Origin: Synechococcus sp. JA-2-3B'a(2-13)
GTDB lineage: Bacteria; Cyanobacteriota; Cyanobacteriia; Thermostichales; Thermostichaceae
NCBI RefSeq assembly: GCF_000013225.1
Contig: NC_007776.1
Coordinates: 453,277 to 517,276 of the forward strand
Direction: 5' to 3'
DNA: 64,000 bases
Part shown: positions 52,616 through 60,673 of the stretch, in pieces
Layout of the letters: every line of letters starts with the position of its first letter
How positions within the stretch are numbered: the stretch's first letter is position 1
Notes under the pieces: generated by a model
What the model was told of the DNA's origin: nothing
Databases searched by the model: none
What the model saw: only the letters and a program-made list of their open reading frames with translations
Program-made: the position numbers and the translations under genes

Positions 52616-52934
52616 CCCTTGTCAGATCCCCCCGCCCCTCGCCGACAGAGGAGCATGACTCTAGTCAATAATAAGCTCAACTATACTGAAAATAATGTAT
52701 AATATGTTCAGTACGGATTACTACCAGTTGATCTTTCTGTTTACTTTCGAGTCTGCCAACATGGTAGCCAAAGCAAAGCAGAAAATTGGTAGTAAGACGA
52801 CACGGAAACTGCGCTTTGGGTATTCTACTCAAAGCTTTGCGGGATACCGCCATTCTGTTTGGACTCCGTCCCGCTAACGCGAATGGAAACAAACAGAATG
52901 CTATCGCTGCATAGTTGAACAGTGATGTTCAGCA
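52616..52934. other. AT-richer spacer with dispersed element upstream of ruvC
   Basis: About 320 bp, AT-richer than the flanks (GTATAATATG near 52693 looks like a -10). The right half is element copy B (52818-52956). A 60-codon frame from 52695 (MYNMFSTDYYQLIF...) briefly recalls the start of nicotinate phosphoribosyltransferases but runs into the element; not called as a gene. Confidence 0.5.
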
Positions 52935-52956
52935 GTGTTCAGCGTAAATGTATCAG
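52818..52956 (+). repeat. Dispersed hairpin element, copy B
   Basis: 139 bp homologous to 38044-38178. Stem arm ATTCTGT (after GGGATACCGCC) pairs with ACAGAAT; the loop has GGACTCCGTCCCGCTAACGC. A second hairpin, TGAACA-GTGA-TGTTCA, follows. The 3' end, GTGTTCAGCGTAAATGTATC, encodes the ruvC start and first residues. Confidence 0.75.
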
Positions 52957-53441
52957 ACACCCCACCTGAGCAGCGCATCCTCGGCCTAGATCCAGGTCTG
53001 GGAACCATGGGTTTTGGTTGCATTCTGGCGGGATCTGCGGGGTTGAAACCTGTGGATTATGGGGTGATCAGCACCCCCAGCCAACACTCGATGCCGGAGC
53101 GGCTGCAAACGCTGCACGAGGATTTGAGCCAGTTGCTGCGCCAACTGCGCCCGCATCAGGTGGGGCTGGAAAAACTTTTTTTCTACAAAATGGGCAATAC
53201 CATTGCCATCGCCCAAGCCCGTGGCGTGATCCTGCTCACCTTGGCCCAGCATCATCTGTTGCCGGTGGAGTTTACGCCCGCCCAAGTCAAGCAAAGTTTG
53301 ACAGGCTACGGACGCGCCGACAAGCAGGCTGTACAAGCTGCCGTGGCCCGGGAACTCAACCTGCCCAGCTTGCCCCGCCCGGATGATGCCGCCGATGCCT
53401 TGGCGATTGCCATCACAGTCTGGCACCACCGCTTCTCTTGA
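52935..53441 (+). CDS. ruvC: Holliday junction endodeoxyribonuclease RuvC
   Basis: 168-residue RuvC. Core begins [18 protein letters not shown] with catalytic Asp (~19). The other acidic residues are Glu in [20 protein letters not shown] (~75), and two Asp in [14 protein letters not shown] (~150). The start is a GTG giving [13 protein letters not shown], an unusual ~13-residue leader wholly encoded by the end of dispersed element copy B. Most RuvC proteins begin directly at RILG(I/L)DPG. No alternative start lies closer. Confidence 0.95.
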
Positions 53442-54343: not shown

Positions 54344-55075
54344 ATGGCCTACGCTCGCCGCTACTTGCGCTTTCCCTCTCAGATCTTGGGCCGGGAAATG
54401 GAGATGCTCCACTTTGGGCATCACGGCTACCCGCTGATCTGTCTGCCCACCAGCAACGGGCGTTTTTTTGACGTGGAAGATCGCGGCATTATTGCCAGCC
54501 TCAGCCATCATCTGGAACAGGGCTATTTGCAGGCTTTTTGCGTGGAAACCCTGGATTGGGAGACTTTGTTCAACCGCCAGCTGGACTTGCCCCAACGGCG
54601 GGAGCGTTGGCTGTTGCTGGAGCAGCACTGGGTAGAAGAGCTGATCCCCTACGCCAAGGCCGAGGCGCAAAATGAGTTTCTGGTGGTGGCTGGGTTTTCC
54701 CTGGGAGCTACCCATGCTGTCAACCTCACCTGTCGGCATCCCGGCCTAGTGCGCCGTTGTTTGGCTCTGGGGGGGCCCTACGATGTGGCCGCTCTCGGCT
54801 CTGTCACCGGCTGGGATCCCCAACGGGCAGAGCAGGAGCTGTATTTCATCAACCCGCTGGCCTATATGTCCAACATGAGCCGGCAACTCTGGGATCAGTT
54901 GGGCGGGCGCAACACCGAGCTGAAGTTGCTCACCGCTCGCCACGACCACTGCCTCAGCGACAACCTGCGCCTGGCAGAAGTGCTCAGCCGCAACGACATC
55001 CCCCATCAACTGGAGGTATGGGAGGGGGATCACGACTGGCCCACTTGGCAAGCGCAAATCCGCGCCTTCGCGTAG
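54344..55075 (+). CDS. Esterase-like alpha/beta hydrolase
   Basis: 243 residues. Start set at MAYARRYLRFPSQ; the frame is open for 47 codons upstream without similarity. Nucleophile elbow VVAGFSLGATHAVNLTCRHP (G-F-S-L-G, ~115), then GGPYDVAALG (~142), Asp near TARHDHCLSDN and His in WEGDHDWPTWQ (~232) complete a plausible Ser-Asp-His triad. Similar to the 'esterase family' (putative esterase D/antigen 85-like) proteins. 37 bp before the ATP-grasp gene, with which it probably forms an operon. Confidence 0.85.
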   Translation: MAYARRYLRFPSQILGREMEMLHFGHHGYPLICLPTSNGRFFDVEDRGIIASLSHHLEQGYLQAFCVETLDWETLFNRQLDLPQRRERWLLLEQHWVEELIPYAKAEAQNEFLVVAGFSLGATHAVNLTCRHPGLVRRCLALGGPYDVAALGSVTGWDPQRAEQELYFINPLAYMSNMSRQLWDQLGGRNTELKLLTARHDHCLSDNLRLAEVLSRNDIPHQLEVWEGDHDWPTWQAQIRAFA

Positions 55076-55111
55076 GATCCCTTGCAGGGAATAGCTTTTG
55101 AGAGAGCTTTG

Positions 55112-56170
55112 ATGATTGAAGACTATTGGGTTGGCAGCCTGCACTTCAGCGAGCCTTTTGGGGACGATACTCTGGCTCGCCTCAACGCACTTCCCCCTGT
55201 TCAAGCTCGCAACGGCCAAACTTACAAGATCCGGGCCGAACATGTCACCATTCACGAGGTGAACCTGGATTACCGCACCAAGTATCGCCTGATCCTGGAT
55301 CGTTTCAGCTACCTTTACCCCCAAGCCATCGGCCTGTTCATGGGCTTTGCCTTTCGGGGGGTTTACCTCATCAACAACCCGTTTAGCTTTTATTACTACC
55401 TGCGCAACAAAGATGCTGCCTACATGGTGGTCAAAGAGCTGGGGATCTCCATCCCCAAAACTTACATTCTGCCCCCTAAAGAAGCCCCCGCATTGAAAGC
55501 AGAGGACTTTAAGTATCACAAGTTTTTCGATTGGCAGGGGATGGCGGAAGATCTGGGCTGGCCAATTGTGATTAAGCCGGCGGAGGGGCGAGAGGCCATT
55601 GGAGTAGAAATAGCCCACAACATGGAGCAGCTCCTCTATTTTTACGACCGCTCTGGATCTCAGGTGATGATGATCCAAGAGAAGGTCAAAACCCCTTACC
55701 CTTGGCAGATTCGCGCCCTCTGCATTGGCCGAAAGATCATTCCGATCAAGTATATCTTTCGCAAGTTCGATGCCAGCGAATATCTGTTTGATCCAGAATT
55801 TCTTACCCCGGAAATGGGCCAGAAAGTCATCAATACCTGTCGGATTATCAATCGAGTTTTGGGCTATGAAATGAACTCGGTGGAGCTATTCATCGACGAG
55901 CAGGGAGAGCTGCAGGCCATCGACTTTAACAATCCGGTGCCCGATGGACGGCTCAAGGCTTTGGGAGAGATCTTCTATAACGATTACCAGCAGGCCCTTT
56001 GCGATTTGGTCTTGGACATCGTGCGGGAACAGCGTCCTTTCGACTTCCTGCCCCCAGATATCAACCGCTTTGCCCACATTGCCCGACGGGCCGATCTCAC
56101 CCGCGAGCAGAAGTTTCAGATGGCTTTGGAATTGGCCAACCGTTACTACGAGCCCAGGGATCCCGATTAA
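55112..56170 (+). CDS. ATP-grasp domain protein (RimK-like ligase)
   Basis: 352 residues. Start at MIEDYWVGSLHF; TTG 55082 is possible. ATP-grasp fold: N-terminal pre-ATP domain, KDAAYMVVKELGISIPKTYI (~104), ATP-binding WPIVIKPAEGREAIGVEIAH (~150-169), QVMMIQEKVKTPYPWQIRAL (~190) and metal/catalytic LQAIDFNNPVPDGR (~270). Such enzymes join a carboxylate to an amine or thiol via an acyl phosphate. Substrate unknown. Lies between an esterase and a FemAB-like transferase. Confidence 0.85.
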   Translation: MIEDYWVGSLHFSEPFGDDTLARLNALPPVQARNGQTYKIRAEHVTIHEVNLDYRTKYRLILDRFSYLYPQAIGLFMGFAFRGVYLINNPFSFYYYLRNKDAAYMVVKELGISIPKTYILPPKEAPALKAEDFKYHKFFDWQGMAEDLGWPIVIKPAEGREAIGVEIAHNMEQLLYFYDRSGSQVMMIQEKVKTPYPWQIRALCIGRKIIPIKYIFRKFDASEYLFDPEFLTPEMGQKVINTCRIINRVLGYEMNSVELFIDEQGELQAIDFNNPVPDGRLKALGEIFYNDYQQALCDLVLDIVREQRPFDFLPPDINRFAHIARRADLTREQKFQMALELANRYYEPRDPD

Positions 56171-56214
56171 AATCAAACCAGAACCCACAAGTGTGGTTTT
56201 CCGCTGGGGAAGTT

Positions 56215-56415
56215 GTGGACGGGCAAAGGAGCAGCAGCGTGGTTTCCGACCCCGTTTCAGGGTGGTACGTGATCAAGCAGGCGCAGGGATCCTGCCAGGT
56301 GCTGCATTTGGCGGCGTTGAGTCGGCAAGAGCATTGGGGGCCTTTTCCCAGCCAAGCTGAGGCAACTGGGCGGCGGGTTGGTCTGATCCGAGCAGGCAAA
56401 TGTCAACCGGGTTGA
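56215..56415 (+). CDS. Small conserved protein (66 residues)
   Basis: 66 codons from GTG (GGGGAA upstream) or 74 from GTG 56191. The C-terminal WGPFPSQAEATGRRVGLIRA followed by GKCQPG strongly recalls a widespread ~60-80-residue cyanobacterial family (often mislabelled DDE-transposase-like) ending RRVGLIRAGKCQP. No membrane segment. Overlaps the FemAB-like gene start by 16 bp, suggesting translational coupling. Function unknown. Confidence 0.6.
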   Translation: MDGQRSSSVVSDPVSGWYVIKQAQGSCQVLHLAALSRQEHWGPFPSQAEATGRRVGLIRAGKCQPG

Positions 56416-57587
56416 AATGGCGCTGGTGCCACGATATTCGCGAGATCCCGGCAGGGGCCTGGCACGCCTTGCAAACGGAGCGCACCTCTCCTTTTTTGGA
56501 ATACGAATGGTTGCACAGCCTAGAGAGCTCAGGTTGTGCCAGCCGCAGGACAGGGTGGCTGCCCTGTCACCTGTTGGTGGAGGCGGACGGCCAGTTGGTT
56601 GCTGCTGCCCCCTTGTATTTGAAAAGCCACAGCCAGGGGGAGTTTGTCTTTGACCAAGAATGGGCTGCAGTTGCCGGCCAATTGGGGGAACGCTACTACC
56701 CGAAGTTAATCGGCATGGCCCCCTTCACCCCGGCCACGGGCTATCGCATCCTCGTCCATCCCGAGTATTCGGAAGCAGAGGTGTGGTCGTTGATGCTGGC
56801 AGCCATTGACCGGTTTTGCCAAGAGAAGGATATTTCGGTGTTTAGCTTGCTTTATGTAGATCTGGACTGGCGGACTCAATTGGAGTCGGATGGATTTACG
56901 CCCCGGATCACCCACAACTACCAGTGGCACAACCCCGGCTACCGCTCTTACGAAGACTTTTTGAGCCAGTTCAATGCCAACCAGCGGCGCAACATCAAGC
57001 GAGAGCGGGCTGCAATGGAAAAAAGCGGCCTAGAACTCAAGATTTACACAGGAGAGGAGATCACGCCCCGCCTGTTGTCTCTGATGTACGACTTTTACAG
57101 CAACACCTGCGCCCAATTTTGGAACTGGAGCAAATATCTCAATCGCCGCTTTTTCGAGTCTCTCTATCCCAACTATCGGGAGCGAGTTGTGCTGGTGGCC
57201 GGGGAACGGAATGCAGAAATTGTGGGGATGTCTTTTTGTATTCGTAAGGGAGATCGCCTGTTCGGGCGCTACTGGGGTTGTCGGGAGGAGGTGAAGTTTT
57301 TGCACTTTAACGTTTGCTACTACGAGCCCATTGCCCTCGCCATCCGAGAAGGGATCCGCAACTTTGATCCCGGCGCAGGGGGATCCCATAAGATTCGACG
57401 GGGATTTCCGGCCACGCCTGTGTACAGCTACCACCGCTTCTACAGCCGAAGGCTACAACAGGTTTTGGTGCCCTACCTAAACCGGGTTAACCCTCTCATG
57501 TTGGCCGAGCTGGAGAACGTGAATCAAAACGAGGTTCCTTTTCGAGAAGATGTTTTGCCTTCTCTATCTGCTTTGACCAAGGAGTGA
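56400..57587 (+). CDS. FemAB/GNAT-like acyltransferase (DUF482)
   Basis: 395-residue protein of the peptidoglycan-bridge/FemAB-like DUF482 group. FLEYEWLHSLESSGCASRRT (~32), LVAAAPLYLKSHSQGEFVFD (~62), YEDFLSQFNANQRRNIKRER (~180-199) and EIVGMSFCIRKGDRLFGRYW (~272) mark the paired GNAT fold; FDPGAGGSHKIRRGF (~320) is the family's conserved C-terminal motif. FemX proteins use aminoacyl-tRNA; for DUF482 the substrate is unproven. Start overlaps the 66-residue gene. Confidence 0.85.
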   Translation: MSTGLKWRWCHDIREIPAGAWHALQTERTSPFLEYEWLHSLESSGCASRRTGWLPCHLLVEADGQLVAAAPLYLKSHSQGEFVFDQEWAAVAGQLGERYYPKLIGMAPFTPATGYRILVHPEYSEAEVWSLMLAAIDRFCQEKDISVFSLLYVDLDWRTQLESDGFTPRITHNYQWHNPGYRSYEDFLSQFNANQRRNIKRERAAMEKSGLELKIYTGEEITPRLLSLMYDFYSNTCAQFWNWSKYLNRRFFESLYPNYRERVVLVAGERNAEIVGMSFCIRKGDRLFGRYWGCREEVKFLHFNVCYYEPIALAIREGIRNFDPGAGGSHKIRRGFPATPVYSYHRFYSRRLQQVLVPYLNRVNPLMLAELENVNQNEVPFREDVLPSLSALTKE

Positions 57588-59159: not shown

Positions 59160-59878
59160 GCGGCAAGCCCCGTCCTTCAGGGCAGGGAAGGATAGCGCCG
59201 ACCGTAGCCGACGCCCTTTAAAAACGCAGTGCCGGCCATGTGAATATCGTTGTCATCACGCATAGGTCAAGAATACGATTGAGCGGTGCAACGACTTCAA
59301 GCCTTCAAGTACGAATTGCTGCCCAACAGCCAGCAGGAACGGCAGATGCTCCTGGGAAGAACGTCCGCGCCAAGTCAGCGTTAAACAAAGCCATTCTCGA
59401 CCAGGGGTGGTATGAGTTCCGCTGCATGCTGGAGTACAAGCTGGCCTGGAAAGGCGGCAGGCTCATTGTCGTGCCGCCGCAGAACACGAGCCGCACCTGT
59501 CCATGTTGCGGCCATGTTTCATCAGACAACCGCCAGACCCAAGCCTGGTTCGAGTGCGTGGCGTGCGGCTATGAGAATAACGCCTTTCGCGGCAGCGGGC
59601 CGGAGGCCTTTCGCGGCAGCGGGCCGGAGGCCTTTCTGGTCGGTGCCATCAACATCCTTGCTCGCGGGATACAGCTGTTGCGAGACGAAGGGCAGGACAC
59701 GACCGACGCTGCGGTCGGGATGCGGGTGGGTGAACCACCCGTGTCAGCCCGGATGGCCTGTGGATCGAACTGCACGGGCGGTCGGAAGCAGGAACCCGCC
59801 GAGACGACTGCGCAAGGAGCCATCCATGCGCAGCGTGGTAGGAATCTCCGGCCTTCAGGCCGGGGAGGATGTCAACAC
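59160..59878 (+). mobile_element. Decayed IS200/IS605-type tnpB element
   Basis: Left-end hairpin CCCCGTCC-TTCA-GGGCAGGG at ~59168-59187; right-end hairpin CTCCGGCC-TTCA-GGCCGGGGAG at 59846-59867, then GATGTCAA. Inside: a TnpB N-terminus (VQRLQAFKYELLPNSQQERQ from GTG ~59285), then a large deletion and frameshift. Next comes the C-terminal RuvC/zinc-ribbon part (LIVVPPQNTSRTCPCCGHVS and ECVACGYEN). A 24 bp tandem duplication encodes FRGSGPEA twice at ~59585-59632. Non-functional. Confidence 0.8.
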
Positions 59879-59953
59879 AGCTTGCCCTCAGGGTCAGCAC
59901 AGGTGAGAATAAAAAAACAGAGAAGCCATCCTCAAGCTCATTTTTGTCTGCCT

Positions 59954-60673
59954 GTGAATCCTGTTCGCACCCTCTCCGCCACCAAAGCGGCCTTTTTCAG
60001 CGCCTACCCTCGCCCGATCAACGCCGTCTATCGCCGGGTGGTGGAGGAGTTGTTGGTGGAGCTGCACCTGACCACCGTCAACAGCACCTTCGTCTACGAT
60101 CCGTTTTTTGCCTTGGGGCTGGTCACCCTCTACGACGGGCTGATGGAAGCCTATCACCCCCCTGAGCAGCGAGAAGCCATTTTCAACGCCCTCTGTAAGG
60201 CTCTGCACCTCAAGCCGGAGGTGTTGCGCAAGAATGCCCGCGATCTGCTGGAGTTGATGGGAAGCGGGGATCCCCGTCAAAGACTTGATCTCCTCTGTCT
60301 CAAGCCAGAGGCGGAAGATGTGGGTGGGTTGAAAGCCATTTTGGAGCGCATGACTCAGCCGCCCTACGCCTACAGCCGGGTCTTAGCTGTTGGCCTTTAC
60401 ACAGCCTATGAAGTTGTGGCCAAGTCCCTTTACGAAGAACCAGAAGAACGCACCCGCCGCTTTTTGGAGAATGTGGTGAGCAAGCTGCCCTTTTCAACAG
60501 AGCGGGTGAGAAAAGATCTGGAGCTCTATCGCAGCAGTTTGGATCGCATGAAGCAGGCGCGGGCTGTGGTCGAGGAGATGGTAAAAGCCGCCCGGCGTCA
60601 GCAGGAACGCCGCCAATCGGCCGCCTCTTTGCCCGAGACTTCCCTCGGCGACCCAAGCAAGCCTGGCAGCTAA
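59954..60673 (+). CDS. thf1: Thylakoid formation protein Thf1/Psb29
   Basis: 239-residue Thf1/Psb29, needed for FtsH-dependent PSII repair and thylakoid maintenance. GTG start giving MNPVRTLSATKAAFFSAYP. Conserved PINAVYRRVVEELLVELHL (~20-38), YDPFFALGLVTLYDGLM (~48) and PYAYSRVLAVGLYTAYEVV (~135), with a coiled-coil C-terminus. The same frame is open upstream into the TnpB remnant, so automated annotation may report a 477-residue false fusion. The IS remnant ends only ~75 bp before the start and may have displaced the native promoter. Confidence 0.93.
   Translation: MNPVRTLSATKAAFFSAYPRPINAVYRRVVEELLVELHLTTVNSTFVYDPFFALGLVTLYDGLMEAYHPPEQREAIFNALCKALHLKPEVLRKNARDLLELMGSGDPRQRLDLLCLKPEAEDVGGLKAILERMTQPPYAYSRVLAVGLYTAYEVVAKSLYEEPEERTRRFLENVVSKLPFSTERVRKDLELYRSSLDRMKQARAVVEEMVKAARRQQERRQSAASLPETSLGDPSKPGS

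Follow-up and report, generated by a model that had tools for sequence, protein, structure and literature searches.

The locus

Do four closely packed genes on one strand of the chromosome of a hot-spring cyanobacterium constitute a single pathway, or have genes of different history come to lie side by side? The question is raised by a run in a 64,000-nucleotide stretch, hereafter the window, of the genome of Synechococcus sp. JA-2-3B'a(2-13). A sequence-only reading had described the run as a hydrolase, a RimK-like ligase, a small conserved protein and a FemAB/DUF482 acyltransferase, encoded on the same strand with short gaps or overlaps. It had proposed that the set might build or modify a peptide- or peptidoglycan-like product, with the small protein as a possible substrate or carrier. 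The coordinates and strand were confirmed, and the four genes are as follows.

EST, 54344..55075, + strand: alpha/beta-hydrolase esterase of 243 aa, assigned by PF00756; likely triad Ser119/Asp201/His230
ATPG, 55112..56170, + strand: ATP-grasp ligase of 352 aa, assigned from weak family scores, a profile match to structure 3r23 and invariant residues
SML, 56215..56415, + strand: cyanobacterial protein of 66 aa with a GTG start and no family model
FEM, 56400..57587, + strand: FemAB_like (PF04339) acyltransferase of 395 aa

The gaps are 36 nt between EST and ATPG and 44 nt between ATPG and SML, and SML overlaps FEM by 16 nt. Pairwise comparison with congeners gave low dN/dS ratios for EST (0.05-0.08, n=4), ATPG (0.02-0.04, n=4), FEM (0.04-0.07, n=4) and SML (0.08-0.15, n=2), by a simple counting method in which some dS values are near saturation. 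The four are therefore genes rather than chance open reading frames, and in the pairs compared all seem to experience purifying selection, strongest on ATPG and weakest on SML. Models of defence systems gave no match to the four proteins at E<=0.01, and the literature search returned no paper whose title or opening lines of the abstract matched either the four-gene set or a pairing of esterase and ATP-grasp.

Family membership and active sites

The hydrolase call for EST holds. The protein scores 39.6 bits against PF00756 (Esterase; cut-off 22), and the expected residues are widely kept, Ser119 in 26 of 27 homologues, His230 in 27 of 27, and Asp201 in 8 of the 9 rows of alignment A1. By score and by these Ser-Asp-His residues, EST is a member of the PF00756 esterases. 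The start at 54344 coincides with the first residue of homologues. One homologue, in G008 (L137:6531-7262), has Ala at the position equivalent to Ser119, and since the nucleophile is thereby replaced that esterase may be inactive.

The acyltransferase call for FEM was equally sound: the FemAB_like model PF04339 matches over its full length (positions 2-369 of 369) with 482.3 bits (cut-off 27), placing FEM among FemAB_like/GNAT proteins, and the FemAB-type model TIGR03019, which bears on the FemABX enzymes that transfer aminoacyl groups from tRNA to a peptidoglycan precursor, gives 18.2 bits (cut-off 260). In G107 a stop seems to cut the FEM frame short, and in G199, G207 and G219 the gene looks divided among frames or pieces, through either decay or sequencing error. 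We take PF04339 to correspond to COG3146. Those parts of the literature on DUF482/COG3146/PF04339 that were available yielded no established function. A table in PMC3223725 records one negative test of a function proposed for COG3146.

The RimK-like label for ATPG needs qualification. The resemblance to ATP-grasp ligases stands, although the best Pfam score is a sub-threshold ATP-grasp match of 17.4 bits (cut-off 31.4). The RimK models also fall short, with 30 bits for TIGR00768 rimK_fam (cut-off 143.4), the best NCBIfam model, and 13.9 bits for PF08443 (cut-off 21). A homologue from another class of the phylum (G035, 52% identity) just passes PF08443 at 21.2 bits, so the label is loose but not wrong. 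Residues K100, K155, R201, E258, D271 and N274 of ATPG do not vary in any of the 15 aligned homologues. In the ATP-grasp superfamily, the roles that fall to K100, K155, E258, D271 and N274 are those of ATP-binding lysines and metal-binding acidic or Asn residues. Thus ATPG has the expected binding residues, and its score reaches the cut-off of no curated model. Its best match among profiles of solved structures is the D-Ala-D-Ala ligase 3r23 (E 8.1e-7); a structure prediction from the window sequence and two close homologues (pLDDT 37.5) was too poor for a fold search. A graspetide assignment found no footing: no graspetide ligase is among the 18 models that NCBIfam gave for ATPG, and the candidate precursor considered, SML, is found without ATPG and has decayed beside a retained ATPG.

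The histories of SML and FEM

FEM is present in 38 of 39 genomes (the window genome and 38 relatives), and its near-universal presence implies a core role of its own. SML is also widespread, with homologues in 25 of the same 39 genomes and in 46 of 291 genomes of the phylum. It carries the motif WGPF...EA..RRVGLIRAGKCQP and matches nothing in Pfam or NCBIfam at E<=1. A structure prediction from the window protein and one other (pLDDT 45.8) was too poor for a fold search. Pfam and PDB profiles gave SML no convincing relative, and they lent no support to reading it as a graspetide precursor or a SPOR-like domain.

Outside the order, SML keeps different company. The 27 loci fetched (20 of the 46 phylum matches and 7 among the relatives) contain FEM in no case, and in 24 of them (among L102, L103, L105-L108 and L147-L164) a ctp protease gene is arranged tail to tail with SML, within 400 nt in 23 cases and at 458 nt in one. 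At 21 of these 24 loci ispG lies beyond ctp, and the protease at the one locus checked is CtpC by NCBIfam. This small conserved cyanobacterial protein thus gains a better context, convergent with a protease gene, which is a lead to its function; the literature search on that context found no paper.

Within the order the arrangement changes. Three of its other members were searched: EST and ATPG occur in none, FEM in all three, and SML beside FEM in two (G199 and G201), where the SML-FEM pair thus exists without EST-ATPG. In the third, G200, which belongs to the same family, FEM is present and SML has no match. SML also adjoins FEM in four genus members, the window included. In the remaining two, EST, ATPG and FEM are full-length, yet the SML frame is broken by stops in G195, and in G194 there is no SML match, only a short remnant visible by eye.

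These distributions bear on the proposal that ATPG and FEM modify SML as their peptide substrate or carrier. Its position between the two in 4/6 genus genomes, its overlap with FEM and its two cysteines, invariant in 13/13 aligned sequences, would suit that role. However, 21 of the 39 genomes have SML and no ATPG, and because of this SML is not the dedicated substrate or carrier of ATPG. Together with its decay beside retained ATPG, EST and FEM in 2/6 genus members and the complete absence of FEM from the SML stretches outside the order, this makes the substrate proposal, in the form that includes FEM, very improbable indeed.

The histories of EST and ATPG

EST and ATPG have far narrower distributions. 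ATPG is found in 6 of the 39 genomes, precisely the six members of the genus, and EST in 7, the same six and a 36% homologue in G213. Across the phylum, ATPG is detected at E<=1e-40 in 3 of 386 genomes, those of the window, the congener G197 and G035, the last being the single case among the 18 genomes of its class. Among 194 genomes, 12 more contain weaker relatives (E<=1e-10, 25-33% identity), all 12 from outside the class of the window. A profile search for EST gave 17 of 386 genomes: the window, G197, G008, G237 and 13 of a deep-branching class, ten of which also hold a weak ATPG relative, always on a different contig.

The closest relatives of each gene lack the other as neighbour. For EST, the nearest outside the genus (61-62% identity) are those of G008 and G237, beside which no ATP-grasp gene was found, one of the loci (L133) being a short contig. 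For ATPG, the G035 locus has an adjoining NUDIX gene and no EST on its 11-kb contig, and G035 is absent from the 17 EST-positive genomes. The plasmid collection has no ATPG match at E<=1e-5, and viral contigs gave no match to ATPG or EST in a search reaching close relatives only. The G+C content of ATPG is 0.517, against 0.578 +/- 0.043 in 42 long open reading frames of the window that were chosen mechanically and may include some that are not genes. A foreign origin by composition was rejected, since the deviation is only 1.4 sd; the case for acquisition therefore rests on distribution.

One unit, two units or chance?

The strongest argument against dividing the run is its persistence. With a 20-kb query, 54.35-57.57 kb of the window forms one continuous DNA match in 5/5 congeners, so that the four-gene block, counting the window genome, is kept 6/6, which argues for one unit. 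The downstream flank takes several forms: RlmD, 3' of FEM in the window, is at that place in 0/5 congeners, and by mechanical calls the first open reading frame after FEM differs in each, although a response-regulator gene no more than about 1 kb away is common to G195 and G196. In G197 the upstream match breaks about 100 nt before EST and EST-ATPG is intact; misassembly is possible at this point because G197 is a draft assembly. The gaps are short and SML overlaps FEM. Transcription signals are no commoner than in shuffled sequence, with 2 promoter-like sites (1.6 expected) and 6 terminator-like sites (6.0 expected), the latter including a hairpin at 55078-55090 in the EST-ATPG gap whose sequence is not conserved in G194.

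Because the block is kept while its downstream flank varies, a joint operon of all four genes is possible. Such a genus-specific operon of all four, or of EST, ATPG and FEM, would act jointly, for instance in assembling or capping a peptide-like molecule, and SML would be a dispensable helper. Against it, 32 of 38 FEM-bearing relatives have no ATPG, and the unrelated-looking order Nuc-PgsA-RuvC-LON leading to EST is likewise kept in 4/5 congeners, so that gene order is weak evidence; we judge a joint function of this kind unlikely. The same upstream conservation, without obvious functional links, would fit a reading in which EST and ATPG arrived separately and are co-directional neighbours by chance, without common function, as would the finding that the closest relatives of each occur without the other adjoining. 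Nevertheless, the two are adjacent in 6/6 genus genomes, the gap (29-45 nt in the five congeners) is always short, the pair withstands the altered upstream flank of G197, and related esterases are paired elsewhere with another ATP-grasp enzyme (see below), so that chance, too, is an improbable explanation.

The favoured reading is a division of the run. On balance it probably comprises two units of different history, an EST-ATPG pair of hydrolase and small-molecule ligase beside SML-FEM, the pair having most likely been acquired next to SML and FEM after these had been rearranged. The expectation of neighbourhood conservation was thus borne out within the genus and failed beyond it: outside the genus the four genes are not neighbours, which the sequence-only reading had itself named as counting against a single four-gene pathway in relatives.

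Repeated sequence was also seen near the run. A repeat of about 306 bp at 52649-52957, between pgsA and ruvC, has, among the matches listed, dozens of copies in the window genome and in G194 that are about 91-100% identical. On the other side, a single open frame at 59240-60673 fuses a TnpB-like end (NF040570, 75.7 bits, cut-off 100) to Psb29/Thf1 (TIGR03060, 199 bits), and part of that frame, 59333-59875, is found again at several other places in the genome.

Esterase and ATP-grasp pairs elsewhere

EST matches were found in 14 plasmid records, of which five were fetched for their neighbourhoods. An esterase gene lies directly 3' of an ATP-grasp gene on the plasmids of Peptoclostridium, Sinorhizobium and Pararhizobium, but not on those of Thiodictyon and Rhizobium lusitanum. 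The same pair is present in the deep-class genomes G010, G032 and G053 and absent in G004 and G018. These assignments come from tblastn with five ATP-grasp queries and Pfam scans of chosen open reading frames; four loci (L132, L133, L138, L146) are on short contigs, and a locus without a match need not lack such a gene. Beyond the phylum, the search covered the plasmid collection and one pattern scan of genome contigs, which was confined to close relatives and yielded two records from congeners.

In a tree of 27 esterases, the three plasmid pairs, the three genome pairs and two unpaired esterases form one clade (local support 0.93), spanning Bacillota, Alphaproteobacteria and the deep class of the phylum of the window. 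Pairing is well supported as real in this clade, and its frequency there (6/8) lends moderate support to a partnership of esterase and ligase. Of the plasmid-borne relatives of the Peptoclostridium ligase, four are near full length; the esterase accompanies three of them but not the one in Massilia. The Thermostichus esterases group with the unpaired ones of G008 and G237 (support 1.0). In a third clade, another ATP-grasp_4 gene was located 0.6-2 kb downstream in G026 and G044, and the remaining members yielded none. The paired ligases carry PF13535 (ATP-grasp_4), and tblastn at E 1e-3 gave no match between ATPG and the plasmid or genome pairs. The EST-ATPG adjacency itself was seen nowhere outside the genus, and it would be a second, independent case of pairing, for which the evidence is suggestive. 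A broader generalization, in which esterases of this kind (presumably COG4947) and ATP-grasp ligases form a general two-enzyme module whose ligase has been exchanged for one of an unrelated subfamily (three phyla having ATP-grasp_4, the genus the ATPG type), is a tentative and rather doubtful extension.

Proposed functions

ATP-grasp enzymes use ATP to convert a carboxylate to an acyl-phosphate, which is then attacked by an amine. ATPG would most likely activate a carboxylate in this manner and couple it to an amine or other nucleophile of a small molecule, and EST, presumably co-transcribed with it, would most likely hydrolyse an ester or acyl bond on the same molecule, before or after ligation. 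SML and FEM would be two older cyanobacterial genes that were brought together within the order. FEM would keep a separate core acyl-transfer job, and SML would be dispensable here, some members of the genus having lost it.

The picture of a four-gene pathway, appealing but with weak support, is thereby corrected, two of the four genes being older and having other histories. A modest lead remains in the adjacency of EST and an ATP-grasp ligase; other phyla show a comparable pair, though with an unrelated ligase. If the module is real, its products would be a hitherto undescribed class of small metabolites with amide or ester linkages.

Relation to known systems

FEM is a full-length member of the FemAB_like family. 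ATPG is comparable to the ATP-grasp amide ligases (the superfamily of Ddl, RimK, LysX and GshB) in its invariant ATP- and metal-binding residues and its match to 3r23, but differs in scoring below the cut-off of every curated model and in its narrow distribution.

A further comparison is provided by distant relatives of ATPG (26-33% identity) in the deep-branching class. At seven loci (L090-L094, L096, L097) such a relative is the last gene of an operon that carries CP_ATPgrasp_2-like and GCS2 genes and, in 6/7, an M29 peptidase gene, the Pfam names coming from one representative each; an eighth locus, on a short contig, has GCS2 alone. The run resembles a pathway to a peptide or to a small-molecule amide, and because distant relatives of ATPG sit in such operons, ATPG itself would belong with the amide-forming ligases of small molecules. 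In the window, by contrast, none of these genes adjoins ATPG; a lone distant GCS2-like match (28%) lies elsewhere in the window genome, and G035 has none at E<=1e-5.

The esterase-ATP-grasp_4 pairs of Peptoclostridium, Sinorhizobium, Pararhizobium, G010, G032 and G053 differ in that their ligase is of another subfamily than ATPG and comes first, whereas EST comes first in the window. Their likeness to the EST-ATPG pair lies in an esterase about 27-35% identical to EST that adjoins the ligase gene on the same strand.
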